In this document: one piece after another, positions 4,900 to 63,215 of the stretch
How the letters are laid out: every line of letters starts with the position of its first letter
How positions within the stretch are numbered: the stretch's first letter is position 1
Assembly: GCA_036925085.1 (NCBI GenBank)
Contig: JAUPFP010000030.1
Coordinates: 2,575,045 to 2,639,044, forward strand
Reading direction: 5' to 3'
DNA from: Brachycybe producta
Taxonomy: Eukaryota; Arthropoda; Diplopoda; Playtdesmida; Andrognathidae
DNA: 64,000 nucleotides
Notes under the pieces: generated by a model
What the model saw: only the letters and a program-made list of their open reading frames with translations
Databases searched by the model: none
What the model was told of the DNA's origin: nothing
Position numbers and translations under genes: made by a program

Positions 4900-5390
4900 G
4901 GTTTATGAACAGCTGAGTTTCAAACTCTTGATTATTGCTGTTTTTTTTTTCTTCTTCAAATGCATAATTAAGAGAAACTTGAAAGTGTTTTAGAAACTAG
5001 AAGAGTAAATCACTTAAGGATAGTTTGATATTGATATAGTTTAAAATAAGCTTTTTATTTGAGTTTGAAAACGATCACATTTTAAGCAGATGCCATTTTT
5101 TATTTTTTAAAACATATGAACGTGAAAATACTCTTAAGTGATTGAGTTACCCTTCCAGTTTCTAAAACACTTTCAAGTTTCTCTTCATTTTGCTCCTGAT
5201 CTCTTTCAAAATGAACTTTCTATTGACAAAAATTTAAAAAAAAATATTGTCTGCTTAAAGTTTTGTAATTTTCAAACTTACAAAAAAAATCGTATTCTGA
5301 AAGATATCAAAATAAAAAATACCCTTAATTGATTGAGCTACCCTTCTAGTTTCTAAAACAAATTCGGGTTTCTCTTTTCATTTTGCATCA
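4900..5390. mobile_element. Family A long-inverted-repeat element (composite copy)
   Basis: The left arm starts TTTATGAACAGCTGA and runs to AAACTAGAAGAG. The right arm ends at CTTCCAGTTTCTAAAACAC. A second right half (5190-5390) follows directly, so this looks like two overlapping copies. Confidence 0.7.
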
Positions 5391-5402
5391 AAAAGAACAA
5401 AT

Positions 5403-5745
5403 TTTTATGTTATTCTAATACCTAATACACACCTGATATTTTAAATGCATTTAAATAATAAACGTGTTCTACAGAGCCCTGTGAAGGACAAACAAACAAT
5501 ATATCGAATTCAATTTATTCAGTTAATAATCTGAAAATATTGAGTTAATACTTAAATATAATTTATATAAACTATTGACAAAATATTGATTTATTATTTC
5601 AATTTAAAATATTAATAATAAAGTCAATTTTTATTTGGTGTTCATGTCCTTAATTGGATTCCGTATAACTCACCTAAACACATTTAATTTGAATTCATTT
5701 AACTCATGTGTGTGTACAAAGTATAAGGAACCGCACCAAGAAAAT
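5403..5745. mobile_element. Family G single arm
   Basis: It matches one arm of 54940-55522 from ACACACCTGATATTTTAAAT through the central AACTCATGTGTGTGTAC. Confidence 0.75.
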
Positions 5746-13327: not shown

Positions 13328-14025
13328 AGCGCCAAACTGAATAAGTGAAAGATCACACATGCTGAAAAATCCTGCTCAATCCCACTTTGTAAGGCATTTT
13401 TTTTTTTACTAGAAGCGCTATAGAAGCGCTTTTTGTTTGGAAAGAAACATAGAAAGTTGATTTATATTTTCTGGTGGTTTTTTTTTTCAGCATGTGTGAT
13501 CTATTCCTAAGCGCAAAACTGAATTAACTGCCAAAATTTTGGCTTTTGTTTAATTTTTTTTTTGCAAGGAAATTCTAACATGATGCGCCTATTCCATTTG
13601 GTACTTAATTCAGTTTGGCATTCATTCCATTTGGCGCTTATTCAATGTGGTGCTCATTCAGTTTGGCTTCTTTTTTTTCAAGTTGGCACATATTCAGTTT
13701 GGTGGTTGTTCAAATTGGCGTTTGTTCAGTTTTGGGATTATCCAGTTTGACAGTTGTTCCATTTTGCACTTATTCAATTTGGCGCTCATTCAGTTTGGCG
13801 TTTGTTCAGTTTTGGGATTATTCATTTTGGCATTTGTTCCATTTGGCACTTATTCAGTTTGACAGTTGTTCCATTTGGCGCTTATTCAATATGGCGCTCA
13901 TTCAGTTTGGCGTTTTTTTCAAGTTGGCACTTATTCAGTTTGGTGGTTGTTTAATTTTGGCGTTTATTCAGTTTGGGCGCTTATTCATTTTGGCGTTTGT
14001 TCAATTTGGCGCTTATTCAGCACCA
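13328..14025. repeat. 16-bp minisatellite array with an inverted unit upstream
   Basis: About 27 diverged units of a 16-bp repeat (CAGTTTGGCGCTTATT type) occupy 13585-14022. One unit in inverse orientation (AGCGCCAAACTGAATAAG) sits at 13328, and a hairpin stem GATCACACATGCTGAAAAA / TTTTTCAGCATGTGTGATC spans 13351-13501. The open frame through it is a repeat artefact. Confidence 0.8.
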
Positions 14026-17680: not shown

Positions 17681-18205
17681 GGGTTTCCGAACAACTGATT
17701 TTCGAACTCTTGGATTATTCTGTCTTTCAGAAGAGCAAAATTATAAGGGTTCTGTGAAAACGCGCACACGAAAAAAAAAACCCACACGAAAAATTGCGCA
17801 CAGAAGCAGGACAAGCAAATGCGCACCGGAAAACTGCGCACACGGAAAACTGCGCACACGGAAAACTGCGCACACAGAAAAATGCGCACACGGACAAATA
17901 CGCTCTGTAGGCATATATTCAACCAACAAATTATAAACATCTATGGTACCCAGTACTTGAACTGTGCATATTTTCCATGTGCGCATTTTTCCTTGTGTGC
18001 TTTTTTCCTTGTGCGCTTTTTTCCTTGTGCGCTTTTTTGTGCGCGCATTTTTCTTGAGCACATATATGATAGTGGGTTTTTTTTTTCTGTGCGCAATTTT
18101 CATGTGGGTTTTTTCTGGTCACCAATTATGAGAAACTTAAGATATCAACATGAAAATCCTAATTTATAAGTGATTTGTCAGTCATTCTAGTTTCTAAATT
18201 CTAAC
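17681..18205. mobile_element. Family A element carrying a nested foldback element
   Basis: Left end AACTGATTTTCGAACTC...TTCAG and right end GATATCAACATGAAAATCC...CATTCTAGTTTCTAAA are family A. The middle is replaced by the hairpin element at 17743-18125. Confidence 0.75.
17743..18125. mobile_element. Foldback-type element with 16-bp repeat arms
   Basis: The left arm has GAAAAAACCCACACG then tandem 16-bp units of the form ACACGGAAAACTGCGC (17830-17900). The right arm is the inverse, with 16-bp units ACAAGGAAAAAAGCGC on the minus strand (17965-18060). A spacer of about 65 bp separates them. Flanking AATTAT on both sides looks like the target duplication inside family A. Drosophila FB elements have this architecture (subrepeated inverted arms), but relatedness is not shown. 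Confidence 0.7.
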
Positions 18206-24100: not shown

Positions 24101-27100
24101 ACCCAAAACGGGTTGGATGAACTGTAATTAATAATTATACATTTTTCCCTAAACTTTTAGCCCTGCTAATAATTAATTTGTCATTGGGTCATTGATTTTT
24201 GCAAACTTTTGGCTTTACTAATTATTGTCATTGGACCTTTGTGTTTTTTTCTGTTATGTTTTTTTTGTGGACAATATTTTATTGTTACTCCTTCTAAACA
24301 TTTCAACACTTGTCCAAAAATATATATTTATAAACACAAATTTTGTGCCATATTTCAACTGGAACAAGAAAATAATAATAATAATAATTGACTAAAAATG
24401 AAGGTCTTAAAGCCGTTTTTAAAATTCCATTTTTTTTTTTGGAACAAAAACAAAAAACAAAATGTAGGTCTGTGCATTAACTAACTACCATCAGAATCTA
24501 AAAAACTTAAATGTCTTTTTTAAAGTTATTTGGTCGAAATTACTGAATTAAGATTTTTCTTCCCCCTCCTCAACGGTAATGAAGGGGTAACGCCTTTCAG
24601 AGTAGAGTGGGCCTTTTTCAAGGTTCCATTTTCCAGAGATAATCATTTTTCTACTTGTTTTTTAAATTACAAAATGTAATATATCGTATCTTAAGTTGTC
24701 CGAACTTTTGGTTAAACACGTATTTTAAACAAATAGTTATTCACTACTGTATTTAAATCGACGTGATTTGTGCCACAAACACTCATAAAAAAACAGTAAA
24801 TGCCAATATAAATACCCTGGTTCTACCAAACTCTGATCAATTTGCAATTAATTTCGAACTAATTACCTGTCATGTTGTTATTTTTAAAGGTGTTCGCTCC
24901 AATCAAACAGAAATCGTGGACAATCCTGGCACGGGTTCCGTATTGACCACAACTACATCAACGAGTAATTCCAGAATGGCCGTAGGAGCCAAGCCTCCTT
25001 CGGCTCTTTCGGGAAGTCCGACCGAAGTACCAGTGGCTCGGAAAGTGCCCAGTGAAGCCACTGCGGCACAATCCGGTTAGAATCTAATAAGAAATAAAAC
25101 ACTTGTTAATTTAAAATTCTGTTGACATTTTTAGAAAATATACATTGCCTTAGCTTAATTGTTGCGTTAACTTTTCTCAGTGGTTCGAGAGCAAGGTGTG
25201 GCCAATCCGAGTTCGAGTAGAAGTACGACAACTACGACAACCAGATCGAATCCTGGAACGAATTCGCAAAACAGGGAAGAATCGTCGGAAAGTCAATTAG
25301 CTGCAGAAGAAGAATTGCTCGTAAGTTGCTTCCGAAAACTACTTTTTTAATTTAAAATTATTGCGATATTTATGAACCAGCTGATTGTCGAACACCGGTT
25401 ATTCTGCTGTTTCAGAATAGCAACACTAAGTGAGAAATTAAAAATGTCTTAGAAACTAGAACGGGTACCTGAATCATGTGTATTGTCATGTTGATATCTT
25501 TCAAAATGAACTTTTTTTATAAACAAAAATTAAATAGTTGGGTCATGTTCAAACAGACATAAAAACACAGACATAAAACGCTTATTTTGAAAGATATCAA
25601 TATGAAAACACGAGCTACCTTTCTAGTTTCTAAAACACATTCAAGTTTCATTTCATTTGCACCTAAAAAAAACAACGGAATAACCAGAGTTTGAGAGGAA
25701 TTTGCACTTTTAAAACCAGTTTAATAATATTTTTATAGTTCGATCGAGACAATGTTTAACCACCTCCCTTTTTGTTTCAAATAGGTACCTATGAGATCCA
25801 GATCTTTTTAATAAAAATAACAATTAAACTATAAATATTGTATTTGATACAATGGATTTTACTAAAAGCAAACTCCTGGCACTTCCATGTATTAGTTTTT
25901 GATCGATCTCTTTCATTAGATTTTTATTATTGAAGGGTTTTTTTGTTCTTCAATGCAAATCAACGCTTCAATGCAAGTGTTAGTTCATATTTTATAAGTG
26001 GGCAAAGTTAAAATTTCACTTTTACTTTTGGTTATTGTAATGTGTGTATTCATAATTAGATGCAATTGTTATATAAATTTGGTTAATTGACTTGGGTGTG
26101 ACAAACAAAAGAACGAAAATTCTTTCTCTCTACAAGGCACCTTTCATTATTTCAAATCATTAATCACATACATTATATATTGTACACTGTCCACTTTTTA
26201 ATGGCTCAAGCATTTTAAAAGCTTAATTATAATAAGCAATCTTAATGTTGGTCTTGTTTTTAATCAAAGAATTAAAACCAATTTGAAGACATTTCGAAAA
26301 CTCTTTTCCGTGTTCTTATCACTACAAAATTTACATATGAAATACTTATGTAACTAGAAATTTGTATCAGCAACTTTTAAAGTGTCCTAAAAAACACCCT
26401 AATTCTTTTCACCTAATATTTTATATTTTATTCTCAATTAGTGATTTTTTTTTGTAACTAAGTGCTTAAACTTAGTTAACTAGAAAACCTCAATTGATTT
26501 CTTAAAGTGGTTTTTAGGTGTAAACTCATCTTGAACTGTGTTTCTTTTGGAAGCAAAATTAAGAGAAACCTGAAAGTGTTTATAGAAACCAAGAAGGGTA
26601 GCTCAATCACTGAAGGTTGAACTACCCTTCTAGTTTCTAAAACACTTTCAATTTTTATACTTAAGAAAGACAGAATGACCAGAGTTTCAAAATCAGCTCC
26701 AAAGTATGCAGATGAAGGAGGAATATAGGAAATCGTATTATAGAACTCTTTAATAATTCTGCATTTCAGAAATTAATTGATAAAAAAAGTGTTTTAAAAC
26801 TAGAAAAGTAATTGAATAATTTAAGGATATATTTTCATACTGTGAAATGTTTTAAAATAAACTTTTATAGCGATTTGAAAATGACACAACTTCAAGCAGA
26901 TAATTTTTGTTAATTTTAATTTGTAAAATGCAGAATAATCAGATTTCCAAAATCAGCTCTTCATGTATGGCAACGTTAAAATGTTTGAATATTTAGATTG
27001 CTCTAATTAGTACATTTTTTTCGCCATAAATCTAAACCTAGGCTGAGGGATTTACGGAGGTTTACGACGTGCCACGAACCATTGCCAAGGTAAAAGGAGC

Positions 27101-29984
27101 CAAATGTATCGGATGCCTGCCATCGAACCAACCAACGACACGAACACGTATCCAACTATCCGACGATCCTGGAAGTGATCCGGGTCCATTGGCAGTGGAC
27201 GCCAGTTCGCAATCGACAGAAAAACACCATGGAGCAGTGGCTCCGAATCCGACTTCGAGTGACTTCAAGAACACGAATCAGGAAATCACGAGCGGTGTCG
27301 GAAGTGGAGCCGAACCAATACAACCAACACAACAACCTTCCGTATCGGCAGTTACTTCGGAACAGGACGCCGGGGATGAGGGTGTCGGAGGTGGAGACCT
27401 GATGGGCACCGAAGTTGAAGAGGACCTGCAAACACAACAATCGCCGCATTACGAGTATTACGATCAAGACGAATTCGACATGAATAAAGACGGTGATCCA
27501 GTCGTTAATAATCCGACTTCCAGCACTGCAAAGACTTCGAGGTACGGCTCAAGACACAGATCGACATCAAGTCGAATCGGTCGATTAACATCTTTATTTA
27601 CGAACAGTGTGTCTCCTTCGTCAACTACGTCGACATCATCGACACGATCGCCGATTGCACCGCAGACGCCGCCACCGAATGCAGTTCGACGTCAGCATCA
27701 TCTACTCCACGGTTCCGACACTCCGGCCAAAAGATGTGATCCTACCGTTTGCAAACTACCGACATGTTTCTGTGGAGGAAATCAAATCATTCCCGGTATG
27801 AGTCATTTTGTATGGGTTGGAAAAAAACCACACACAGATCACTTTTTTTTGCTGATCGATTTCGACAGTAAAATGAAGTCGGGTTGTCGTCAAAATCGAC
27901 CCCTTCGAATATTTCCATAAAAATACATTCCAACCACATTGCAAACACTGCTCAGCCTCAAAGCACAATGCAACCACAAATCAACCACCTGCAACTTCAT
28001 TGTGTAGTCGAAGTCGATCACCAAAAGTGGTCTGTGTGCCAAGAGCGTTTTATACAGTCGAAAAAGTGTTTCATTTTTTTACATTTTCAGGAATTGTACT
28101 GAAATTTCAGAAGAAAGCTTATCATTTTCAATGATTTTGACACTAGAAGAGTAAAAGAAATTGAATAAATAATTTTCATGATGATATTTTTTTGAAAATT
28201 ATCTCTTTACTGCAGTTAGAAAAAGCCGAAATTTTATAAGTTTTCTGTAAATTGAAAAATTAAAATGAACAATTTTAAAATTACAATACACAGTTTATTT
28301 TTTTAAAAATAGCATCATGAAATTTATCTACACAATTTCGTTGACTCTTCTAGTGTCAAATAAATTCTGAATGACCCATGTCCATTACACAAACTAGAAT
28401 GGGTATTTTCATGTTTGATATCGTTTAAAATCAACATTTTATGTGAATTTGAAAATGACCAAATTTTAAATAGACGATATTTTAACATTTTTGAAAATAT
28501 AAAACATGAAAATATGACTAAGTGGTTCAAAGCTATTGTACCATTCTAGTTTCTAACACACGTTCAATTTCCACTTAGTGTTTCAATGGAATTTTTGTAC
28601 GTTTGTGTTTGGATGACAGGTGGACTTAAATTGGACGATATACCTCAGATGGTTTTGATTACTTTCGATGACGCCGTCAACGACATCAACTGGCCACTTT
28701 ACGAACAATTGTTTTACAAAGGCCGTAAAAATCCTCACGGATGTCCGATTGCGGCCACATTTTACGTCTCGCACGAGTGGACGGATTACGGCAAAGTTCA
28801 GACATTGTACTCGGATGGACACGAGATCGCCTCTCATTCCATAACGTAAGTGTCTCGATCTAGAAGACTAGAAAGTGCCTCAATCTAGAGAGTATAACTT
28901 CATAGGGGCAAAATTAAGAGAAACTAGAAAGTGTTTTAGAAACTAGAAGGGTAACTCAATCAATTATGGGTATTTTCATGTTGATATCTTTCAAAATAAG
29001 CTCTTCATGTCAGTTTGAAATTGACACAACTTTAAGCAGACATTTTTTTTTTCAGATTTTTGTCTATAAAAAGTTTATTTTGAAAGATATCAAACATTCA
29101 AAGCTACCATTCTAGTTTTTAACACACTTTCAAATAAAAAGAATGACTTATTATAACTTCACTCTATGATCTTTTCTCGTGTTCATTTTTCCAGACATAG
29201 TTTCGGCCAAGACTTTTCCAAAGTGAAATGGGAAGATGAAATCTATGGACAGAAAGAAATCCTGAGTACTTATGCCGGAATTAAGTACGACGACATTCAA
29301 GGAATGCGATCTCCATTCCTGCAAATAGGTGGTAACAAACAATACACAATGTTGTACGAGAACAATTTCACGTACGATTCGTCGATGCCAGTCTACGAAA
29401 ACAAACCTCCTTTCTGGCCATACACACTAGACAGTGCTCTTCCGCACGAGTGTATGATCCCTCCGTGTCCAACTCTATCTTTTCCCGGTGTCTGGGAAAT
29501 TCCGTTGGTCATGTGGGTTGATCTGAACGGTGGACGTTGTAGCATGGCCGATGCCTGTTCCAATCCACCTACGGCCGAAGGTGTCTACAAAATGCTCGTT
29601 AAAAACTTCGAACGCCACTATCTTACGAACCGTGCTCCTTTCGGACTCTTTTACCATTCGGCTTGGTTCGCAATTCCGCATCATCGTGAAGGTTTCGAAG
29701 CATTCCTCGATGCTCTCGTCACCATGGACGATGTTTTTCTCATCACATCCTCGCAACTCATCGAATGGATGAGAAATCCGACTCCGTTGGCTAAAGTCAA
29801 AGAGTTTCCTGCGTGGCAGTGCCATTCAAAGGACAGAGTTCCTCCTTGTAAGAAACCTAAAGTGTGTAACTTATGGTTTAAAGGAGGAGTTCGTTACATG
29901 AAAACGTGTCAACCGTGCCCATCTGTTTATCCTTGGGTGACAAATACGGGCTCGAAGAATCAGACTAGTTCGCAAACGACTTGA
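20991..29984 (+). CDS. Cda5: Chitin deacetylase, Cda5 type (CBM14 + long linker + NodB deacetylase); 5' signal-peptide exon not found
   Basis: Six coding exons join in frame: 20991-21188, 24890-25075, 25181-25320, 27042-27795, 28620-28845 and 29195-29984, stop TGA at 29982. All introns are GT-AG, with phases 1,1,0,1,2. The joined product is about 763 residues. It starts with a six-cysteine CBM14 chitin-binding domain, continues through about 360 residues of Ser/Thr/Pro/Gln-rich linker, and ends in a carbohydrate esterase 4 (NodB) domain. Visible motifs are TFDDA (catalytic Asp and metal Asp), SHSITH (metal His pair, formed only after splicing exons 5 and 6), RSPF, FTYDSSM and FYHSAWF, so it should be active. 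The family removes acetyl groups from chitin in the extracellular matrix or cuticle. CBM14 plus a long linker without an LDLa module matches the Cda5 group. The first exon here opens two bases into a codon, so a signal-peptide exon ending in phase 1 must lie upstream; I could not find it. Confidence 0.93.
21230..21400. mobile_element. Family H inverted repeat next to a Cda5 donor
   Basis: ACGGACCACTTTTGGTGGTCG and CGACCACCAAAAGTGGCCTG are inverse ends; GCAACCACGTTGTAACCAC lies in the middle. It begins about 40 bp past the CBM14 exon. Confidence 0.7.
21478..21988. mobile_element. Two adjacent family A elements in Cda5 intron
   Basis: Copy one is at 21478-21658 and copy two at 21659-21988. The second ends GAATATTAGCTGTTCATAAA then CCATCTTAA, close to the CCACCTTAA family end. 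Confidence 0.75.
22905..23441 (-). mobile_element. Element D, copy 1 (microsatellite-ended repeat)
   Basis: It matches 58358-58706 in the opposite orientation: CCAGGTCTGTG + (GT)n end, AATTTATATAAATTT, a GA-rich segment, GCGCATGCGC, and GGGAGCAAAATT...CGGGTTACC end. The GTCAT..ATGACGGG part can form a short hairpin. Enlarged by a nested family B variant. Confidence 0.7.
23261..23401. mobile_element. Short family B variant nested in element D
   Basis: Palindrome bounded by ACAGGCAATTATGCCCAGC and GCTGGGCACAATTGCCTG, with AATTTCTAATTGGATTTG inside. Confidence 0.7.
23538..23926. mobile_element. Family A element in Cda5 intron
   Basis: Full arms are present: GGTGGTTTTTAAGATGTAAAC at the left and ATCAGCTGTTTGTAAACCAT at the right, with GAAATTAGAAGGGTAACTC inside. 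Confidence 0.75.
24890..27795 (+). CDS. Cda5: Cda5 linker exons (Ser/Thr-rich, low complexity)
   Basis: Exons 24890-25075, 25181-25320 and 27042-27795 encode the linker. It is rich in Ser, Thr, Pro and Gln with short Thr runs (TTTTSTS, TTTTTTR), an acidic patch (YEYYDQDEFDMNKDGD) and a basic patch before the deacetylase domain. Such sequence is probably disordered and heavily O-glycosylated. The last exon ends with a Cys-containing segment (CDPTVCKLPTCFCGG) that leads into the catalytic domain, as in other Cda5-like proteins. Intron 24890-side donor is GTTAGA, an unusual but GT donor. Confidence 0.85.
25371..25730. mobile_element. Family A element in Cda5 intron
   Basis: Left TTATGAACCAGCTGATTGTCG, right TTTCTAGTTTCTAAAACAC then AACCAGAGTTTGAGAGG. 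Confidence 0.72.
26505..26975. mobile_element. Two family A elements in Cda5 intron
   Basis: 26505-26700 has arms meeting almost directly (AACCAAGAAGGGTAGCTC... / ...CTACCCTTCTAGTTTC), so it lacks most of the core. 26740-26975 is a diverged second copy. Confidence 0.68.
27813..28058. mobile_element. Family H inverted repeat next to a Cda5 donor
   Basis: ACACACAGATCACTTTTTTT and CGATCACCAAAAGTGGTCTG are the ends. It starts about 17 bp beyond the exon end at 27795. Confidence 0.7.
28115..28580. mobile_element. Family A-like palindrome plus family A element in Cda5 intron
   Basis: 28138-28361 is an inverted repeat bounded by GACACTAGAAGAGT and GACTCTTCTAGTGTC, a diverged relative. 28375-28575 keeps CAAACTAGAATGGGTATTTT and CATTCTAGTTTCTAACACAC. 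Confidence 0.6.
28620..29984 (+). CDS. Cda5: Cda5 catalytic exons (polysaccharide deacetylase, CE4)
   Basis: Exons 28620-28845 and 29195-29984. The first carries DDIPQMVLITFDDAVND (motif 1) and ends inside motif 2. Splicing AC|A restores the Thr codon and creates SHSITHSFG. The second carries MRSPF (motif 3), YDSSM (motif 4) and GLFYHSAWF (motif 5), then a cysteine-rich C-terminal segment. No key residue is missing. The 349 bp intron between them holds a family A repeat. Confidence 0.94.
28890..29142. mobile_element. Family A element in the last Cda5 intron
   Basis: It has TTTTAGAAACTAGAAGGGTA and the inverse CTACCATTCTAGTTTTTAAC, with the GATATCTTTCAAAATAAGC core. It makes up most of the 349 bp intron. 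Confidence 0.75.
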
Positions 29985-31351: not shown

Positions 31352-31714
31352 AGGCTTGTCTTTATTTAGGAATATTTTTTTTGTATTGAATATTGGATTG
31401 TTGTTCTTTTTTTTAAGTTATTTTACATTTTATTTGTGAAAGAAATATTTGTGTGATTTCTTTTTCTTTTTTTCACAATTTATTTCCTTATTCCATTTTT
31501 TATTATATAATTCGACCTAATTATTTAAATTTATTATAAAGTAATTATCTGACATATCATTTTTTGGGCGATTTTTTTTAAAAATGTTTTATACATCATT
31601 TATGTGATGTCAGAAATAATAATAGGTCTAAAAAATCATTTTTTTTGGAGGAAAAAAAAATATTAAAATATGATTAATATAAACGTTTCATTATCATTTA
31701 TTTTCGTTATTTTA

Positions 31715-32035
31715 GTTTGTTAAGGTGTTTTGAAGGCGTAAATACCCTCTTACGAATTCTGATTATTCTGCCTTTCAGGTGCAAAATGAAGAGAAATTTG
31801 AAAGAGTCTTGAAAACTAGAAGAGTAAATCAAGATGATTTTAGTCTTTATGGTTTCTTATTAACTTCTTATTGCAATTTCGAATTATCGTGTTTTTTTTT
31901 CACTTCACATTGGGCCAAAAATAAAAAATAAAAATCTTAAATGTGAAAATTCGGCCATTTTCAAACTGTCATAAATTGTTTATTTTTTTTTTAAAGCGAG
32001 ATGAAAATCCTAAAACATTGTCTAGTTTTAATTAA
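31715..32035. mobile_element. Family A element, diverged right arm
   Basis: It opens TTAAGGTGTTTTGAAGGCG and contains GAAAACTAGAAGAGTAAATC. The right arm decays after ATGAAAATCC. Confidence 0.6.
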
Positions 32036-32504
32036 CTAATCAAGGAATAATAAATATGCCAAAGGCAGTTTTTAATTAATTATAAAAATGCCTTTTATTA
32101 TTACTGATGTAAATAAATTCAATGAATTTCATAATATAAACTAATTTAATGAAAATCTTAATTTAATTACAGATACTTCAGTTAATTTTAAATATTTTCA
32201 AAATTTCATTTCATTTTATTAAAAGTTTTCAGAAATGTTTGATAGTCACCTCTTATCGCCTCCTCCGAGGTGGTTAAGGTAAAACTTAGGAAATTCTTCC
32301 CTTGAATAAGTTTCTCGTCACTGAGCTCATTTGATATCGCAATTGGCCCGTTTTTAATTCTCAATCAACGGTTATTTTCGGCCTAGACGCGCGCCCAGAG
32401 CCCCAATTGTTTGAAGTCCCAAAAAGTTCAAAACTTTCGTCAAATATATACAGTATGCACATACACACAATTGTCAAACACCATGGACCATTAAATCCAC
32501 CAGC

Positions 32505-32700
32505 GTCCAAGAGGCTTAGCACACAAACCACATTTAATCACTTTTCAACTGCAAAATGAAGTCGCATGTGGTTGAGCTGTGGTTGCAATGTGATTTTTGT
32601 TTTAAAAACGCAAGGTGGTCGATTTTGGCGACATCCCGATTTCATTTTGCAATCAAAAAGTGGTCAAAAAGTGGTCTGTGTTCTAAAAGCCTTACAGCCT
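32505..32700. mobile_element. Family H inverted repeat
   Basis: TTAGCACACAAACCAC and AAGTGGTCTGTGTTCTAAAA are the ends; it lies within duplication unit 1 and has no clear counterpart in unit 2. Confidence 0.6.
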
Positions 32701-33017
32701 CAACAATTATAAAACGTGCCAGTGTTCTCAGTTTCTCATTGATATTCATAGGGTTCCTTAATTTAGTGTCATAAATTGCGCTCGTTTTTTTTAGATTCAG
32801 TTCGTACATTTGTCTAAAAAAACGCATGCACACAACGCACAAGTGACAGGCGCTAAAAATTTGCATATTATGTTAATTGCATTCTGAAAAGGAGAGGAGA
32901 TAAAAAGGGGAATAAAAAGCTGATGAGAAAAAGTGAAGCACAACGAAAATGAAACAAAACTGTTATCGATTTCCTGGAGAAAGTGTAAGGACTCATAATC
33001 ATAAGGGCTACTGACGT

Positions 33018-33543
33018 TCAACAACCATTATCAAATGAAACAATTGTGGAGTAAACAGAATTATCCGTTCCGACGTGACTTCGTTCAGAACAAACTTCGT
33101 TACTCATACTCGATGGCAATAAATCGGGTCTATCTGGCATAACGTACCCGCTGTTACATCCGTCCTGCTCCTGCCGTTCCTGTTGTTGTTGCTTCCTACC
33201 ATTCATAGTTTCCATAAACAACAACAGTCTCGGTAATGGTTGCGGTGCTTTTTGAAAACCGAAACGCATTGTTGCCGTTGCCGTTGCCGAATGAGCCGAT
33301 GCGAGTGTGTTGAAAGAACCTCCACATCCTGTAGTAGGCTTCAGTTTCGGTGGTCTCGGAGGCACCCGTTCCGATCGTGGTGATGACGGCACACTCGATG
33401 CGCCATACGAAAGATACATCAACGAAGTCGATCTCGGTGGAAGAGGAGGAAGTGGAATCAACGGAGGCGGTGGAAACTGAGTTTCTTGCAACTGTCTTCG
33501 AGAATCTTCTTCTTCTTCTTCTCCTCTTCCACCTCCTCCTCTT
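33018..33543 (-). CDS. Cytoplasmic-tail exon of Ig receptor copy 1
   Basis: The acceptor TAAAG is followed by one base completing a Val codon, then a Gly/Glu-rich stretch (RGGGGRGEEEEED), proline-rich segments (FPPPPLIPLPPLPPRSTS), PPRPPKLKP, a Gln-rich run, and two tyrosine motifs near the end: GYVMPDRPDLLP and DNSVYSTIVSF. SVYSTI fits the ITIM consensus S/I/V/L-x-Y-x-x-I/V/L. YVMP has Pro at +3, as in Crk-type SH2 ligands. Function is inferred from motifs only. Confidence 0.82.
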
Positions 33544-35535
33544 CTTTACAAACGAAAAGTCATCGTTATTTTATTGAAGTAGTTTTAGACATTAGGAGTT
33601 TTCAAACACTCACACGGTATCTGCGTACACTTCGCTGGAACTCCGTCGAAAGCCTCTTCTAAGTATAAGTATTCGTACAGAAAAAAAAGAAGCTACGATA
33701 ACCACAATTAGAACTGTTCCGATGATTCCGCTAACGATGATGATGATTTTTTCCGGCATATCTGAAATAAATCAATTCAAATTTTCAAACACTGATTAGT
33801 CTGTCTCTTAGGAGCAAATTTAAAAGTGACTTGAATGTGTTTTAGAAACTAGAATGAGACTGTAACCCAATCACTTAAGGGTATTTTTCATGTTGATATC
33901 GTTCAAAATAAACTATTTATGAAACAAAAAGTATCTAGCATCTAAACACTTTCAAGTTTCTCTTCATTTAGCACCTGAAAGACAAAAGAATTAGAGTTCG
34001 AGAGGCGCTTTTTCATTCACGTGTGATTTGACTTGAATCTAAGACGGAGATGATAATATCCGAAGTGACGTTGGTTTCGTTAAGACGGTCAAAAGCGACG
34101 CAACGATAAAGTCCCGCTTTTTTGGGTACGATCTTCTCTCGGTTCGAAAGGTCGCCTTCTAGATAAAGTGACCAGGAGTCGTTATTGTTTTCATGTTTGT
34201 GCATCCATTGATAGAACGGCTGCGGTTCGCCTTCGGACTCGCATTTTAGTTCGTTGCGTTCTTTAAGTTTGACTTTGACGTTTTTTGATTTGATTTGGCC
34301 GTTAACTGATATGTTCAGTTCTCTCTCTGTATCTAAATATAACATTACAAAATAAATTTTGATACAGTTAAGATCGAGTTAAATGAGTTTAACGAAAGAA
34401 AAATCATTACGTTGTAAAATTAACAACGTTTCATTGAGTGAATGCTGAAGAATCGTAGAATTCTCGGCTACACACTTGATTTCTGTCTGATTTCGTATGA
34501 GATTCATTTTGTTCCATCTCAGATCCGATGAACTTGTCCCATTTGGAGAAACCTGTCCGTCCACCACCCAAAATAGTTCCCTCATCATGTCACTTTCAAA
34601 AACGCATTTCAAGTTAACATTCATTTCATTATTCCACGGTCCATACAGTTTCGTAACTTTCGCTCCGTTCCATCGTATCTCTGGTTTCATAACAACTAAG
34701 GAAGAAAATAAAACTAGCAAAAGTTTATACTTATGTTTAAATTTTAATAAAACAATATTCTTACACGTGACGTTTATTTTTTCCGATATGACTCCATCGT
34801 GATTAGCATTTGCACAGGCAGTACACTGCCACTGAGCACCGTCCGTGTTGTTTTTGGCATTATTTATCGTGAACGTGCAATTGTTCGTATTCGTACCATT
34901 TCCAATCACGTACTGATATCTGTTTCGAATCGCAAGCGGAGATCCGTTTCGTGACCAACTGCAGTCGGTTACTGTAACGTTGTACTCGCAATAAAGAGTT
35001 AAACTGCTTCCTTCGCCTACGTACAACGTTTTATTACTAACTTTTATGATTTTTACACCTGTACTGCTACAACCTAGAAAGTTGCAAAGCAAAAAGACAA
35101 AATAGCCTTATAACTAACGTAAAGAGTAATAAGAATTATGGTGGGATTAAACTGTAAACGCCTTTTGAACTCTTAATTATTTTATCTTTCAGGTGCAAAA
35201 CCAAGAAAAAACTTGAAAGTGGTTTAGAAACTAGAAGTACAGCTTAATCACAAAATGGGATTTTCAATGTTGATTGATATTTTTCAAGATAACCATTTTA
35301 GGCGAGTTTGAAAAATGACTGAACTTTTAGTCAGGCCATATTTTTTTGTTTAAATCTGTGTCTATAAAAAAAAAGTTAGTTTTGAAAGATATGAACATGA
35401 AAATCCTCTTAAGTGATCGAACAACCCTTCAAGTTTCTAAAAAACACTTTCTCGTTCCTCCATCTTATATTCACTTCTTGCAAGCTGCAGATTCCTGAGA
35501 ATGACTACGAGTACGATACACCAAAACGGATTCAT
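33018..35535 (-). CDS. Immunoglobulin-superfamily membrane receptor, copy 1 (3 Ig + TM + ITIM-like tail)
   Basis: Six coding exons on the minus strand: 35535-35475 (signal peptide, MNPFWCIVLVV...), 35073-34765 (Ig1), 34695-34411 (Ig2), 34332-34021 (Ig3), 33761-33614 (transmembrane) and 33543-33018 (tail, stop TGA at 33020-33018). They sum to 1641 nt, 546 residues. Ig exons are all phase 1-1, the usual arrangement for shuffled Ig domains. Ig1 has four cysteines (LYC...WQC plus an extra DC/NC pair) and many N-glycosylation sequons. The membrane span IIIIVSGIIGTVLIVVIVASFF is at about residues 328-350, followed by basic residues. The tail of about 195 residues holds PPRPPKLKP (SH3-binding type), GYVMPDRPDLLP (Tyr 505) and SVYSTI near the C-terminus (Tyr 536). 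I read it as a cell-surface adhesion or signalling receptor; I cannot assign a named family. A paralogue lies 4.5-5.4 kb away. An acceptor at 35586-35587 suggests a spliced 5' UTR. Confidence 0.85.
33785..33980. mobile_element. Family A element in Ig3-TM intron of receptor copy 1
   Basis: It has GTTTTAGAAACTAGAATGAG and AACACTTTCAAGTTTCTCTT with a short middle. A copy sits in the equivalent intron of copy 2 (38282-38640), so insertion may predate the duplication. Confidence 0.7.
35142..35470. mobile_element. Family A element in signal-Ig1 intron of receptor copy 1
   Basis: It runs from GGTGGGATTAAACTGTAAACG to TCAAGTTTCTAAAAAACAC. The paralogous intron of copy 2 also carries one. Confidence 0.7.
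35475..35535 (-). CDS. Signal-peptide exon of Ig receptor copy 1
   Basis: ATG at 35535 opens a 20-codon hydrophobic leader (MNPFWC...LQLAR) followed by donor GTGAAT after one extra base. It was found by aligning it with the same exon in copy 2. The phase 1 end joins exactly to Ig1, giving SCSS at the junction. The leader is too short for a long ORF and would be missed by ORF length filters. Confidence 0.8.
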
Positions 35536-36974
35536 CTTGTTGTTGTCACTGGCTCGAACCTCTTTTTAATGTTGCTGATTGTGAACTACAGAAAATAAAG
35601 GAAGCAAAATAGTTTATTTTTGTACAAAGCAGCTTGACTATCACTTTCGATAAATAAGAAACAATTTCAACTTGTTTCATTTTTGAAATTAAAAGATAAA
35701 ATTTTACACATTCATTCATATCCATCGGAGATTTGTCCTTTTTTTTCCTTTTTCACTTTCACAAAATAAGGACGCCATCAATAAAAAAACCCACACCTAT
35801 TTCACCTTTTCCAACCAATGTATGGCCAACAGTGTAACAACAATTAGCCAACGTTGGCACAACTCATTCGTGCTACCTGGGTTCGCAGTAGTTGTTCATA
35901 TACTGCTATAAGTAAATTAAATTAATGTCAATTATTTTCTGTATAATTTAATTGAAATCATAAATTTTATTTATATTATATATATTTGAATTTTTAGAAA
36001 GTTTTCAGTCATTTTTAGAACCCTTAAAATACCTCACAGCTTCTCTAAAGACGCTTACCAACCCTGGATATAAGAAACCTTAACCACACTAGTTAATTAA
36101 CAAACCCTGGTGAGCTCATTTAATCCTTCAATTGGCCCATGGCCCATTTATAATTCTCTGTCGGGGGGGGGGGGGGCGATTTGCTGCCTAGGCGCGCGCC
36201 TAGGGCCACCAATGGTTAGAACTTAGAAACACCAAAAAAGTCAAACCTTTAATTTATGTATATAAAGCTATGTAAAAATTAATTGCAACCACGTCAGAGC
36301 TAATTAATTTCATCAATTTCTTCATTAAAAAATTTTATTGAAATAAAAAAAAAGTAGATGTATTTCAGAACAACTTTACGTAAAAAAAAATTTCTTAATT
36401 TTGTTATACATTTTATTTTAATTATTTTTAACAATAGTCCATTTAAAAGACCACAAAAATGATTTCTCTGTTAAAAAACAAAATGACTGAACTAAAAAGT
36501 TCAGTCATTTTTAGGATTTTATTTTTATTTTATAACAATCTTCGCATTCAATTTGAATTGATACAAAAATTAGATATTATTGGTTATAAATTTTAGCTAA
36601 TTAATAATTAAGACAAAATTGACAAATTGTTTTAGATGTTCAAAAATACGTGCACTTTTGTTTTATTTCAATAAAGATTTTCATGTAATATTGACTGAAA
36701 CTGACGAAATTTACACATGATGAAGTACACAAAAGTTTATAATTGCATTTTGGTTGCTATTTATTTTTTCCATAGCTGTAATGTACATACAACAAATTAT
36801 TAAGTACCAATGTACCAAGGGCCCCGAAACCCTACAGGGCCTAGAATGCCTTAACAGTTAAAAACGCACCAGTGTTCTCAGCTTCTCATTGATATTCATA
36901 CGGTACTTCAGTTTAGTGTCATAAATTGAGCTCTTTTTAGAAATTCAGTTCATACATTTATCTAAAATACGCAT

Positions 36975-37273
36975 TACAATTACAATTACAAAAAGTACTC
37001 TGCTAGCAGCCAAATAGGCCTACGGCAGAGGGACATAAAAGTCCAGATGCAGCATTAAGCATTGTCAAGCACATATACATGCACATATATTAAAAAAACA
37101 AAATAAATATACAATTGTCAATCACACAAAACAAAATTATCCCCAGTCACCACTGCCTCAGGAAGAGAGTTCCATTGTCTTATAACTCTAGGAAAAAAAA
37201 TACCAATAATATGAATCTGTCCTAGAAAAAATCTTCCTAATTTTCCTAGAGTGGTCAGCCCTGCACATGTATA
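36975..37273 (-). mobile_element. 5'-truncated LINE 3' end (RT C-terminus)
   Basis: On the minus strand the frame reads CRADHSRKIRKIFSRTDS, then FFPRVIRQWNSLPEAVV, the R-x-I-x-x-WN-x-LP signature seen at the end of LINE reverse-transcriptase ORFs (Jockey/CR1-like group). A short 3' UTR follows and then a tail of (TAATTG)-type repeats at 36975-36990. Copy 1 of the duplication has an uninterrupted sequence at this point (around 32825), so the insertion edges are clear and it postdates the duplication. Confidence 0.85.
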
Positions 37274-37504
37274 CATGCCATGCACACCTACAAGTGAGAG
37301 GCGCTAAAAATGTGCATATTATGTCAATTGCATTTTGAAAAGGGGAAATAAAAAGTTGATGAGAAAAAGTGAAGCACAACAGAAATGAAACAAAACTGTT
37401 ATCAATTTCCTGGAGAAAGTGAAAAACAATTCGCAATGATTAATGAGTCAAAAGGTCACTGAGTAAAGGGCCCCCTCATAGTCATAAGGAATATTGACGT
37501 ACGG

Positions 37505-38018
37505 TCAGCGACTATTATCAAATGCGACAATTGTGGAGTAAATGGAATTATCCGTTCCGACATGACATCGTTCGGAACTCGAACTCGAAGGCAATAAATC
37601 GGGTCTATCCGGCATAACGTACTCGCTGTTACAGCCGTTCTGCTGCTGACGTTCTTGTTGCTGTTGTTTCTTACCATACATAGTTTCCGTAAACAATAAC
37701 TGTCTCGGTAACGGTTGTGGTGCTTTTTGAAAACCGAAACGCATCGTTGCCGTTGCCGAATGAGACGATCCGAGTGTGTTGGAAAAACCTCCATATCCTG
37801 TTGTAGGCTTCAGTTTCGGTGGTCTCGGAAGCATCCGTTTCGATGGTGGTGATGACGGCAAACTCGATGCGCCGTCCGATAGAAACATCAATGAAGTCGA
37901 TCTCGGTGGAAGCAGAGGAAGTGGAATCGAGGGAGGCGGTGGAATTAGAGTTTCTTGCAATCGTCTCGGAGATTCTCCATCTTCTTCTTGTCCTCCTCTT
38001 CCGCCTCCTCCTCCTCCT
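37505..38018 (-). CDS. Cytoplasmic-tail exon of Ig receptor copy 2
   Basis: This tail has the same layout as copy 1: Gly-rich start (GGGGGGRGGQEEDGE), IPPPPSIPLPLLPPRSTS, PPRPPKLKP, a Gln run, EYVMPDRPDLLP and DNSIYSTIVAF. The tyrosine motifs and their surroundings are almost unchanged between the copies while linker residues differ, which suggests selection on the signalling motifs. Confidence 0.82.
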
Positions 38019-40889
38019 CTTTACAACGAAACGTCATCATTATTTTATTGAAGTAGTTTTAGACATTATTAGTTTTCAAACACTTACACGGCATCTGCGT
38101 ACATTTTGCTGGAACTTCGCCGAAAAACTCTACTACGTATAAGTAATCGTATCGTAAAAAAACAAGTTACGATAATCGCAGTTAGAACTGTCACGATGAT
38201 GCCGCTAATGACGATGAACACTTCTTGAGTCATTTCTACAATAAAGAAACTCAAATTATATAATAAAAAATATGAAATAATACGATCGATTTTCAAACTC
38301 TTGAATTATTTTGTGTGTCAGGAGCGAAATTAAGAGAAACTAGAAAGTGTTTTAGAAACTAGAAGGGTAGCGCAATCACTTAAGTGTATTTTCATGTTGA
38401 CATCTTTCAAAACAAGCTTTTTATCTTAGTTTGAAAATGACCCAACTTTAAGTAGACAATATTTTTTTAATTTGTGTCGATAAAAAGTTTATTTTGAACA
38501 ATATATATCAACATGAAAATACATTTAAGTGATTAATTTGTGCTACCATTCCAGCTAATTCTAAAACACTTTCAGGATTTTCTGTATTTTGTACCTGAAA
38601 ACAGAATAACCAGAGTTCGAAAGGGGCGTTTACACTTTAAACCCGCCTTAATTAACTCACGTGCGATGTGACTTGAATCTAAGACGGTGATGATGATATC
38701 CGAAGTGACGTTGGTTTCGTTAAGACGGTCAAAAGCGACGCAACGATAAAGACCCGCTTTTGTGGGTACGATCTTCTGTCGGTTCGAAAAGACGCCTTCT
38801 ACATAAAGTGCCCCGGAGCCATCCTTGTCTTCATTCATGTGCAGCCATCGATAGAACGGCTGCGGTTCGCCTTCGGACTCGCATTTTAGTTCGTTGCGTT
38901 CTTTAAATTTGACTTTGACGTTTCCCGATTTGATTTGGCCGTTAACTGATATGTTCAGTTTTCTCTCTGTATCTACATATAACATTACAAAATAAACTTT
39001 AATACAATTAAGATCGAGGTAAATGAGTTTAACGAAAGAAAAATCAATTACGTTGTAAAATGAGCAATGTGTCACTGATTAGTCTGATTCTATACACAAA
39101 ATTCATGTAATATTCGACTACACATTTGATTTCTTTCTGATTTTGCATAGATTTCCATTTTTTCCATGTCAGTTCCGATGAACTTGTTCCAAATTGGAAG
39201 TAAACCTTTCCGTCCAACTCCCAAAATAGATAATTGTCGATGCCACTGTCAGAAACACATTTTAAGTTAACATCCATTCCATCATTCCACGGAGCATACA
39301 GTTTCATAACTTTGGTTCCGTTCCATCGTATCTCTGGTTTCGATAAAACTAAAGATCAAAGCAAAACCAGTTTAGGTTTAATTTTTTTTTTAAAAAAACG
39401 TTCCTCTCTTCTTTTTTCCAAGTGTAATACGAAGAGAGTGTATTAGAAACACTTGAATGTGTATTAGAAACTAGAAGAGTACCTATAAATCAATTAAGGA
39501 CAATATGAAAATACCCTTAAGTAATTGAACGACCCTTCTAGCTTCTAAAACAATGTCTAGTTTCTCCTAATTTTGCCCCTGAAAGACAGAATAATCAAGA
39601 GTTCAAAAATCAGCCATTGAGCTATTCATTTCGAGGCTTTCTAAAACGATTACTTATTATTACAAGTGTATATTCAACTAAACAATATTCTTACATTTGA
39701 CATTTATCTTTTTCGATTCAACTCCATTGTGATCGGCAGTTGCGGAGGCAATGCACTGCCACTGAGCATCGTCCTTGTTCTTTTCGACATTCTTTATAGT
39801 GAACGTGCAATCGTTCGTATTCGTACCATTTAAACTCACGTACTGATATCTTTCTCGAATCGAAACCGAAGATCCGTTTCGTAACCACTCGCAGTTGGGT
39901 ACTTTAATGTTGTACTCGCAATAAAGCGTTAAATTGCTTCCTTCGCTTACGTACACCTTTTCCGGGCTAATTTTTCCGATTGTCAATTGTGTATTGCTCG
40001 AACCTAAGAAAATACAAAGCAAAAAGGTGAAGACCTACGCAAAGATTAATCAGAATTATGATGGTTTTTAAAGTATAAACGCTTTTCGAAGTGGTTTAGA
40101 AACTAGAAAGGCAGCTCAATCACTTCAACAGCATTTTCATCTGTTAAAATAAGCTTTTTTTGTCAGGTTGAAAATGACTTAACTTTAAGCAGATTATATT
40201 TTTAAGACTTTTGGTTAAATAGGATGTTGAATGAAAAGGGGAAAATGCTTGGGATTGATCTCGAAATCTTATGGATCGAATAACTCGAGAAAGGAATGTG
40301 ATTACGAGATGCGGATTTTTTTTTTGTTTATTTGACACGTTACATTGATTTCACGTTTCAGCAGCCACAGTAGTTATTTTTTATAATTTTTAGAAACAAA
40401 TTTTGAGTTTTTCAGTCATAATAAATAGTTTGTGGATCATATAACTAAAGAAGAGATTGAAGGAATCCTATAAGCTTTTGTTGCATTGATATGTTTCCGA
40501 CTTGCAGTAAGAAATAACAATTTCAATTTGCATTAAGTTTATTTTAAACTTCCTATGTTTGCAGATACAAAGCATGTAAACCCATACATACTACTGGACT
40601 AGGTATCCAAATGCTTGCAGAATAACAGAAATCTAAAAACATTGCCATTTACTAAAAATTTTTCTCTATAAAAAATGTATTTTCAAAAATATCAACATTA
40701 AAATACTCTTTATGTGATCGAGCTAATCGTCTAGTTTCTAAAATACTTCCTTAATTGTCCTAATTTTGCTTCTGAAAAACAGAATAATCAGATTCTCGAA
40801 AATCAGCTGTTCATAATAAACCACCTTAACTCACATCTTGCAAGCTGTATATTAATGAGGATGACCACGGTACACCAAAACGGATTCAT
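37505..40889 (-). CDS. Immunoglobulin-superfamily membrane receptor, copy 2 (tandem paralogue)
   Basis: Six coding exons on the minus strand: 40889-40835 (signal peptide MNPFWCTVVILINIQLAR), 40003-39695 (Ig1), 39348-39052 (Ig2), 38972-38661 (Ig3), 38235-38088 (transmembrane) and 38018-37505 (tail, stop TGA at 37507-37505). They sum to 1635 nt, 544 residues. Order, phases and most exon lengths equal copy 1 (Ig1 309, Ig3 312 and TM 148 nt in both). Ig2 is 12 nt longer and its C-terminal third is very different. The tail keeps PPRPPKLKP, EYVMPDRPDLLP (Tyr 507) and SIYSTI (Tyr 534). The membrane span is VFIVISGIIVTVLTAIIVTCFF, followed by RLLIRSRVFRR. No stop or frameshift is visible, so this is a functional paralogue by sequence. 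The gene is 0.9 kb longer than copy 1 because of extra repeats in introns. Confidence 0.85.
38282..38640. mobile_element. Family A element in Ig3-TM intron of receptor copy 2
   Basis: It starts ACGATCGATTTTCAAACTC, has AAACTAGAAGGGTAGCGC, and ends GGCGTTTACACTTTAAACCC. Confidence 0.75.
39447..39618. mobile_element. Short family A element in Ig1-Ig2 intron of receptor copy 2
   Basis: Only TATTAGAAACTAGAAGAGTA, a brief middle and CCCTTCTAGCTTCTAAAACA through AAAAATCAGCC remain. Copy 1 lacks it. Confidence 0.7.
40062..40829. mobile_element. Family A element split by an insertion, signal-Ig1 intron of receptor copy 2
   Basis: The left half is 40062-40215 and the right half 40640-40829, ending ATCAGCTGTTCATAATAAAC then CACCTTAA. 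About 425 bp of unrelated sequence sits between. Confidence 0.65.
40835..40889 (-). CDS. Signal-peptide exon of Ig receptor copy 2
   Basis: An ATG at 40889 preceded by a run of ACA/ACAACA repeats opens an 18-codon leader, then one base and donor GTGAGT. It joins T|GT to make the Cys codon at the start of Ig1. An acceptor (TTTTTTTAG) at 40978-40979 just upstream, conserved in copy 1, suggests the ATG exon begins at about 40977 with untranslated sequence and that an earlier non-coding exon exists. Confidence 0.8.
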
Positions 40890-41280
40890 CGTGTTGTTGT
40901 TGTTGTTGTTTTCACAGGGCCACAATCCAAGTGTAACAATGGCATCATACCTGTTTTTGAATGTTGTTGATTATAAACTAAAAAAATAAAGAAAGGAAAC
41001 AGAATAGTTTATTTTGTACAAAACAGTTTGATTTTCACTTTCGATAAATAAGAAACAATTTTACCTTGTTTCATTTTTTTGAATTAAAAAGATAAAACTT
41101 GACACAAATTGGTTCCATATTATTTGAAATTGGTTTTATTACTCATCGTCTGAATGAAGCACCAAATATTTCAGATCATTACAAAACATCATCAAACGGT
41201 GATTGACATTTTACCTGTTTTCCCCGCCTCCCACAAAATAAGGACTTCCATCAATAACTTAAAAACCCACATCCAAACAT

Positions 41281-45473: not shown

Positions 45474-61179
<15,706 letters not shown>

Positions 61180-62732: not shown

Positions 62733-63215
62733 GTATTAAAATGGCTTTCTCTCCAACTCTTGATTATTCTGTAGTTCAGGAATAAAATTATAAGAAACAC
62801 TGAAAGGGTTCTAAAAACTAGAAGGGTAGATCAATCACTTAAGACTGTTTTCTTGTTGATATCTTTCAAAATAAACTTTTTATTTCAATTTTGAAAATGA
62901 GTCAACTTTAAACAAGACTATAAAAAGTCCATTTTGAAAGATCTCAACTTTTTAAGTGATTGAGCTTACCCTTCTAGTTTCTAAAACACGCAGAAAACTA
63001 AAAACTAGAAGGGTAAATCAATCACTTAAGACTGTTTTCTTGTTGATATCTTTCAAAATAAACTTTTTATTTCAATTTTGAAAATGAGTCAACTTTAAAC
63101 AAGACTATAAAAAGTTCATTTTGAAAGATCTCAACTTTTTAAGTGATTGAGCTTACCCTTCTAGTTTTTTAACAACACGTTCAGGGTTTTTCATAATTTT
63201 GTTCCTGAAAGATAG
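62733..63215. mobile_element. Family A element with an internal tandem duplication
   Basis: A segment of about 185 bp at 62815-62995 is repeated almost identically at 63000-63180 (AAACTAGAAGGGTA, ATCAATCACTTAAGACTG, TTCTTGTTGATATC). The near identity makes this a very recent event. Confidence 0.8.

Follow-up and report, generated by a model that had tools for sequence, protein, structure and literature searches.

A tandem pair of immunoglobulin receptor genes in the millipede Brachycybe producta and the larger four-cysteine family around it

What kind of immunoglobulin (Ig) receptor is encoded by a pair of genes whose predicted tails carry tyrosine motifs, and does such a pair stand alone in its genome? 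The question is raised by two neighbouring genes, A and B, on a 64,000-nucleotide stretch of Brachycybe producta DNA (contig JAUPFP010000030.1, positions 2,575,045 to 2,639,044; hereafter the window). A preliminary description had proposed an arthropod receptor family that combines inhibitory and adaptor docking, analogous in layout to vertebrate paired receptors. By homology, A and B are tandem duplicates inside a large Ig-receptor family. For their tails we favour, on balance, a docking function on a fast-evolving recognition or adhesion receptor.

Rebuilding the locus exon by exon gave two intact six-exon genes on the minus strand (Table 1), which the preliminary description had placed exactly and had correctly described as complete and alike in exon order and phase. 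In both genes introns 1-4 are in phase 1 and intron 5 is in phase 2, and GT..AG borders are found at all 10 introns. In both, the first exon encodes a hydrophobic start, exons 2-4 an Ig domain each, exon 5 the membrane span and exon 6 most of a tail of approximately 190 residues. The search for Ig families proposed earlier was run with Pfam, where Ig_3 and I-set exceeded the cut-off in both proteins (Ig_3 scoring 67 bits in B and 62.6 bits in A, cut-off 30). Pfam marked three Ig_3 stretches in A against two in B, domain 2 being divergent in both, and detected no fibronectin type III (FNIII) repeats in either protein. Hydropathy shows a single strongly hydrophobic span beyond the hydrophobic N terminus, which we read as a putative signal peptide. 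Gene models, Pfam and hydropathy together bear out the three Ig domains and one membrane span that had been claimed per gene, and the predicted products of A and B are Ig superfamily transmembrane receptors. Chance falls far short of accounting for these gene models. A single-sequence structure model of B domain 1 was poor (mean predicted local distance difference test score 49). Intron 2 of A (window 34696-34764) is 69 bases long, a multiple of three and free of stops, and its retention would insert 23 residues between Ig domains 1 and 2; intron 2 of B has 346 bases.

To call A and B a tandem pair is true locally, but they sit in a much larger family. With B as the query against the 295 Mb genome (E <= 10, worst match 8.8e-4) we obtained at least 84 matches, 10 in A and B and at least 74 outside them; all such counts are lower bounds, 80 of 102 candidates having been scored. 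At least 72 of the outside matches fall in three clusters, C25 (at least 48, 3.184-3.350 Mb), C47 (at least 14, 47-116 kb) and C7 (at least 10, 4.053-4.143 Mb), with at least one further match on each of C48 and C37. All matches beyond A and B are to the first Ig domain. The best of them (E 4.5e-13 to 2e-12, 36-41% identity) show its pattern C..C.W....C...W.C, and the four cysteines and two tryptophans are invariant across 10 aligned first domains from four loci. The four invariant cysteines suggest a second disulphide in this domain. By these first-domain matches, A and B belong to the four-cysteine Ig family of the C25, C7 and C47 clusters. The proposal of an arthropod receptor family therefore gains from the family matches in the genome, and the best named matches of a neighbouring chitin deacetylase are arthropods. 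Among 5.8 billion proteins no homologue of whole B (E <= 1) or of its ectodomain (E <= 10) was found, a search limited by its word filter and group coverage.

We read C7 genes from four stretches (31 kb) and C47 genes from two (20 kb). Complete C7 genes show the order first, second and third Ig domain (D1, D2, D3), membrane span and tail. In one C7 gene (L036 7115-5110) D2 seemingly runs straight to the membrane span without D3, and between a C7 D1-D2 pair (L036 8160-7339) and the start of the following gene there is no span or tail that could belong to the pair. In profile comparisons D3 of A and B matched D3 of C7 (E 3.9e-8, probability 95%) and D2 matched D2 (E 2.2e-4, probability 45%), with the crossed comparisons serving as negative controls (E 0.11 and 0.075). 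Because domains 2 and 3 match position for position, A and B share the layout of the C7 subfamily, strongly at D3 and moderately at D2. C47 genes have two four-cysteine domains (in one case only one was recognised), followed by a membrane span and tail. The C47 receptors in L039 and L040 (C47:84001-94000, 100001-110000), mostly with two Ig domains, have tails that end in GSPHxY[S/T]EIxIYENL. Two adjoining 3,006-base C47 units are identical over approximately 2.3 kb and are either very recent copies or an assembly repeat. A fast-evolving first domain in C47 was considered and dropped, as the 118 differing columns of these copies all lie in the first 700 bases and are accounted for by a duplication edge.

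The tails were compared across eight receptors, namely A, B and six from C7 and C47. All eight contain Y[LVI]x[P/R] followed by Y[S/T][E/T/D][I/P]; the first module reads YVMP twice, YLVP twice, YIIP, YLTP, YLSP and once YLSR. The two tyrosines are 34-45 residues apart in the six C7/C47 tails, 31 in A and 27 in B, and in six of the eight tails the second lies 10-12 residues from the end. One tail found twice (L040 8340-8669, identical to 5334-5663) was counted once. The table of eight omits a C7 tail that an earlier alignment had included (L038 2230-2649; YLNP, YAEV; ectodomain not identified). That tail belongs to a membrane span and tail at L038 2016-2649 (C7:4140016-4140649), with QYLNP and EYAEVHTYYEF, and a search with it (E <= 1) gave no second genomic copy. 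The two-part pattern, drawn up after the tails had been seen, was run against 2804 open reading frames (ORFs) with a minimum length of 40 aa. Nine fit, namely A and B themselves, three C7 ORFs and four C47 ORFs, of which two are identical. The pattern fits 0 of 1718 ORFs in C25 and 0 of 601 other ORFs in the window. Moreover, a coding pattern for Y[ST]E[IV]xxYEN has nine matches across the 295 Mb (two in C7, seven in C47), and the reversed control has one. In a position-based comparison the last 25 residues of A and B resemble the C7/C47 module (shuffle P 0.0017 for A and 0.00015 for B), as does the stretch downstream of YSTI alone (P 0.028 and 0.008).

Several observations weigh against this picture of a shared, functional tail. 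The A and B tails were recovered neither by a profile of five C7/C47 tails (4962 ORFs, E <= 10) nor by one built from the C-terminal module alone (E <= 100). The stretch upstream of YSTI is not significantly similar to the C7/C47 module (P 0.17 for A, 0.16 for B), and A and B, being near copies, do not count as independent. Of six C7 first domains examined, two precede a two-part tail and four have no readable one after them (one of these has a partial tail with VYLKN); the first domain belonging to the third C7 tail lies outside the stretch. The L038 tail fits only a wider pattern, which also catches one unrelated ORF of the window. Every tail motif taken singly is common, and the D2 match to C7 is a moderate one at its probability of 45%. 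The proposed tail homology is based on the order and spacing of the sites and on a short match at the C terminus, all tested after being noticed, and the position-based test and the pattern count, designed post hoc, are weaker than profiles. Taken together, these data make a common origin of the A/B and C7/C47 tails likely, not proven. Because the strict consensus of the immunoreceptor tyrosine-based inhibitory motif (ITIM) occurs only in A and B among the eight tails, the feature that the family shares is a pair of tyrosine sites and not an ITIM.

Selection has acted differently on the two halves of the protein. Between A and B the ratio of nonsynonymous to synonymous divergence (dN/dS) is 1.07 in the ectodomain (95% confidence interval 0.74-1.62, 304 codons) and 0.40 in the tail (0.24-0.68, 164 codons), a difference with a permutation P of 0.0018. 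The tail value is 0.45 (0.23-0.92) after dropping the low-complexity head and a glutamine run. From the tail ratio and its interval it follows that the tail reading frame is under selection; the tail is constrained by purifying selection and the ectodomain has diverged about as fast as silent sites. An ectodomain ratio near 1 reflects either relaxed constraint or a mixture with positive selection, which one pair of genes cannot separate. It also lends some colour to the idea that A and B are decaying duplicates whose motifs are relics, which is very improbable given that the frames and all splice sites are intact and that the tail is under purifying selection. Introns 3 and 5 of A and B are 93-94% identical, the others 64-74%, and synonymous divergence in domain 3 is low (0.088); hence gene conversion may have homogenised part of the locus.

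The motifs taken alone say little about function. Each tail was shuffled 5000 times. At least one ITIM consensus arose in 18.6% (A) or 18.9% (B) of the shuffles, YxxP in 45-46% and a class I SH3 ligand in 23-26%; a pair of class II SH3 ligands, as in A, was rarer (2.5%), and one, as in B, was found in 27%. The list of tail motifs is by itself no evidence, because shuffled tails often give the same motifs. Of that list, YVMPDRPDLLP and S-x-YSTI are present in both genes as described earlier, but PPRPPKLKP is exact in A only, B having LPRPPKLKP. A coding pattern for YVMPDRPD is found at two places in the 295 Mb, A and B.

We think it somewhat probable that A and B, as tandem duplicates of a large family, are fast-evolving receptors for recognition or adhesion whose tails serve for docking. 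The adaptor docking already suggested in the preliminary description looks reasonable, since the two-part tyrosine tail recurs in diverged relatives. The ectodomain would bind a changing or self ligand, upon which a Src-family kinase would phosphorylate the tail. Two SH2 proteins would then dock, a Crk/Nck-like adaptor on the Y-[LVI]-x-P site and another protein on the C-terminal YS[T/E]I site, with SH3 proteins held by the proline-rich stretches. Src-family kinases phosphorylate such tyrosines, YxxP being read by Crk/Nck-type SH2 domains and YEN by Grb2-type ones. The added YEN of the C7/C47 tails would serve as a binding site for a Grb2/Drk-like adaptor. In A and B the sequence is YSTIVxFDN, with phenylalanine in place of the second tyrosine, that of YEN; with FDN where C7/C47 have YEN, A and B would have lost the Grb2/Drk-like output.

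Alternatively, A and B could be adhesion molecules of Fasciclin III or nectin layout, homophilic on the outside, with YSTI as a YxxPhi sorting signal and the proline-rich stretches as cytoskeletal ligands. The YSTI of both genes does fit YxxPhi, and the C7 D2 profile resembles SYG-2, nectins and CD276. A provisional Drosophila Fas3 sequence matches the family D1 (14.3 bits) and C7 D2 (24.3 bits) profiles in order and above 200 shuffles, and against it a joined C7 D1-D2 piece gives a BLASTP E of 1.7e-5 (database of 1e8 letters). However, generic Ig proteins in PDB, titin, DCC, SYG-2 and nectins among them, match these profiles at least equally well, and neither the A/B D2 and D3 profiles nor that of C7 D3 match the provisional Fas3 sequence. 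Moreover, an ectodomain dN/dS near 1 and large tandem clusters would be unusual for conserved adhesion proteins. We therefore regard an adhesion role of this kind as unlikely. Fasciclin III as an orthologue was left unproven, the match to the provisional sequence not rising above generic Ig.

A slightly smaller probability still goes to an ITIM-type inhibitory receptor, in which phosphorylated SxYSTI would recruit a Corkscrew/SHP-like phosphatase and damp a partner receptor. SHP phosphatases usually need two ITIM sites, and the A and B tails hold a single ITIM-like one. Both tails fit [SIVL]xYxx[ILV], but at chance level per tail (P 0.19). Moreover, none of the six other family tails fits, all six carrying H at -2 and not I, L, V or S, and at the position of YSxI one C7 tail reads YSDP. 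The ITIM label given earlier is thus not upheld. Nor is the analogy to vertebrate paired receptors, since A and B carry tails of one kind, have an uncharged span core and lack an immunoreceptor tyrosine-based activation motif (ITAM). No activating partner of opposite sign was seen in A and B, the other clusters not having been searched for one. An ITIM mechanism has been reported in arthropods by two sources, one on Draper-II and Corkscrew (PMC9008705), the other on a Daphnia Dscam whose tail includes or excludes an ITIM (PMC6851185). The latter source reports that no ITIM was found in shrimp Dscam and says that crab Dscam lacks one. An inhibitory role for A and B is possible; the ITIM reading of them is weak and an adaptor-docking tail appears to fit better.

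The C25 cluster seems to pair the same domain with another output. In 180 kb of C25 we found 52 Ig domains and 10 MATH pieces at eight places, and all eight lie within a few kilobases 3′ of a same-strand Ig group. Across C25:3180001-3290000 (L018-L028) each of these eight places has two to three four-cysteine Ig exons and then a MATH/TRAF-C frame on the same strand. Two MATH reading frames were scanned and both match Pfam MATH_2 (5.6e-15 and 2.3e-18). Three C25 units were read; downstream of its Ig exons each has a membrane-span-like frame, followed by an intact MATH frame in two and by MATH-like fragments in the third; the remaining Ig groups of C25 gave no MATH match at the threshold used. 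This arrangement suggests that C25 encodes candidate receptors with Ig domains, a membrane span and a MATH tail, beside the related tyrosine-tail receptors. Tentatively, and with less than even confidence, we propose that an arthropod outside Pancrustacea has built a multi-cluster Ig system in which one four-cysteine domain type is joined either to tyrosine adaptor tails (window, C7, C47) or to a TRAF-type MATH tail (C25). If true, the system would have evolved separately as a counterpart of the multigene receptors with interchangeable outputs that serve immunity or self-recognition in vertebrates. In the literature searched, the arthropod Ig receptors described as expanded are Dscam genes, and short searches of open-access literature gave no title on this four-cysteine Ig family or on an arthropod Ig-MATH receptor. 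A family of more than 70 Ig-domain stretches, in which tails are under selection, ectodomains drift or diversify and possibly two kinds of tail occur, would be a candidate for non-Dscam recognition, with which the question of how such arthropods diversify recognition becomes directly testable.

Elsewhere in the window, a plus-strand chitin deacetylase gene lies at approximately 27-30 kb, with ORF pieces at 27042-27920 and 29157-29984. The latter piece matches PDB 5z34 and 5zns, which we take to be insect enzymes, and the closest matches that carry a name come from arthropods, with 60-70% identity. As a control query the chitin deacetylase gave 173 matches at E <= 0.001, with many arthropod names among the 120 listed. 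In a tree of 37 rows the query and a metagenome protein (87% identity) fall outside the sampled insects and crustaceans and do not group with the mite Oppiella; the next join, to two long-branched proteins (support 89/86), is drawn open. This placement suggests an arthropod that is probably not a pancrustacean but a chelicerate or a myriapod. A minus-strand C2H2 zinc-finger gene at 45992-47481 is presumably ovo/shavenbaby-like. A dispersed element of approximately 70-95 bases with TTTAGAAACTAGAA is repeated in both orientations in the introns and flanks of A and B (window 31700-41000), and by eye a 187-base tandem unit at 62811-63167 looks like it. Tandem arrays at 13585-14020 and 17817-18053 consist of 16-base units (the first also of an 80-base unit) and give long low-complexity reading frames.

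Table 1. Features of genes A and B, in window coordinates.
Feature	Position	Strand	Details and basis
Gene A	33018..35535	-	exons 35475-35535, 34765-35073, 34411-34695, 34021-34332, 33614-33761, 33018-33543; 546 aa; open frame
Gene B	37505..40889	-	exons 40835-40889, 39695-40003, 39052-39348, 38661-38972, 38088-38235, 37505-38018; 544 aa; open frame
A exon 2, first Ig domain, four-cysteine type	34765..35073	-	gene model, Pfam, alignment
B exon 2, first Ig domain, four-cysteine type	39695..40003	-	gene model, Pfam, genome search, alignment
A exon 3, second Ig domain (divergent)	34411..34695	-	like C7 domain 2, E 2.2e-4, probability 45%
B exon 3, second Ig domain (divergent)	39052..39348	-	gene model, profile match to C7 domain 2
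A exon 4, third Ig domain	34021..34332	-	like C7 domain 3, E 3.9e-8, probability 95%
B exon 4, third Ig domain	38661..38972	-	gene model, profile match to C7 domain 3
A exon 5, membrane span (residues ~328-348) and juxtamembrane	33614..33761	-	hydropathy; span core without charged residue
B exon 5, membrane span (residues ~330-350) and juxtamembrane	38088..38235	-	hydropathy; span core without charged residue
A PPRPPKLKP, possible SH3 ligand	33336..33362	-	coordinates derived from exon map
B LPRPPKLKP (not PPRPPKLKP)	37805..37831	-	coordinates derived from exon map
A YVMPDRPDLLP, first tyrosine module Y-[LVI]-x-P	33114..33146	-	sequence pattern
B YVMPDRPDLLP, first tyrosine module	37589..37621	-	sequence pattern
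A SVYSTI, C-terminal tyrosine module (ITIM-like by consensus only)	33042..33059	-	sequence pattern
B SIYSTI, C-terminal tyrosine module	37529..37546	-	sequence pattern

Lastly, we compared A and B with known Ig and tyrosine-tail systems. Fasciclin III shares three Ig domains and one membrane span with them, and the provisional Fas3 sequence shows the four-cysteine pattern in its D1; its similarity does not exceed generic Ig, and by eye its tail bears no resemblance. Vertebrate paired receptors and SLAM/PECAM-type tails are broadly alike in being fast-evolving clustered Ig receptors with YSEI/YSTI-like motifs, whereas A and B have no activating partner or charged span. The Draper ectodomain is EGF-like and so of another kind than that of A and B, whose ITIM-like site is such by sequence alone. 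Draper-II is an arthropod receptor with a tail whose ITIM is bound by the SH2 phosphatase Corkscrew in flies, according to a review (PMC9008705). The oyster CgIgIT2, an invertebrate Ig receptor with an immunoreceptor tyrosine motif, differs in being a mollusc protein with five Ig domains and an ITAM (PMC11999971). Membership of Dscam was rejected: with three Ig domains, A and B show no FNIII repeats in Pfam, and the single PDB Dscam chain, which is among the numerous Ig matches, came first in none of the comparisons. Dscam is nevertheless like the A/B family in being a duplicated Ig receptor, multiplied in arthropods by tandem or whole-gene duplication, including chelicerate and centipede expansions (PMC4835542, PMC4244043), with tails that carry SH2 and SH3 sites and, in some species, an ITAM or ITIM (PMC6851185).

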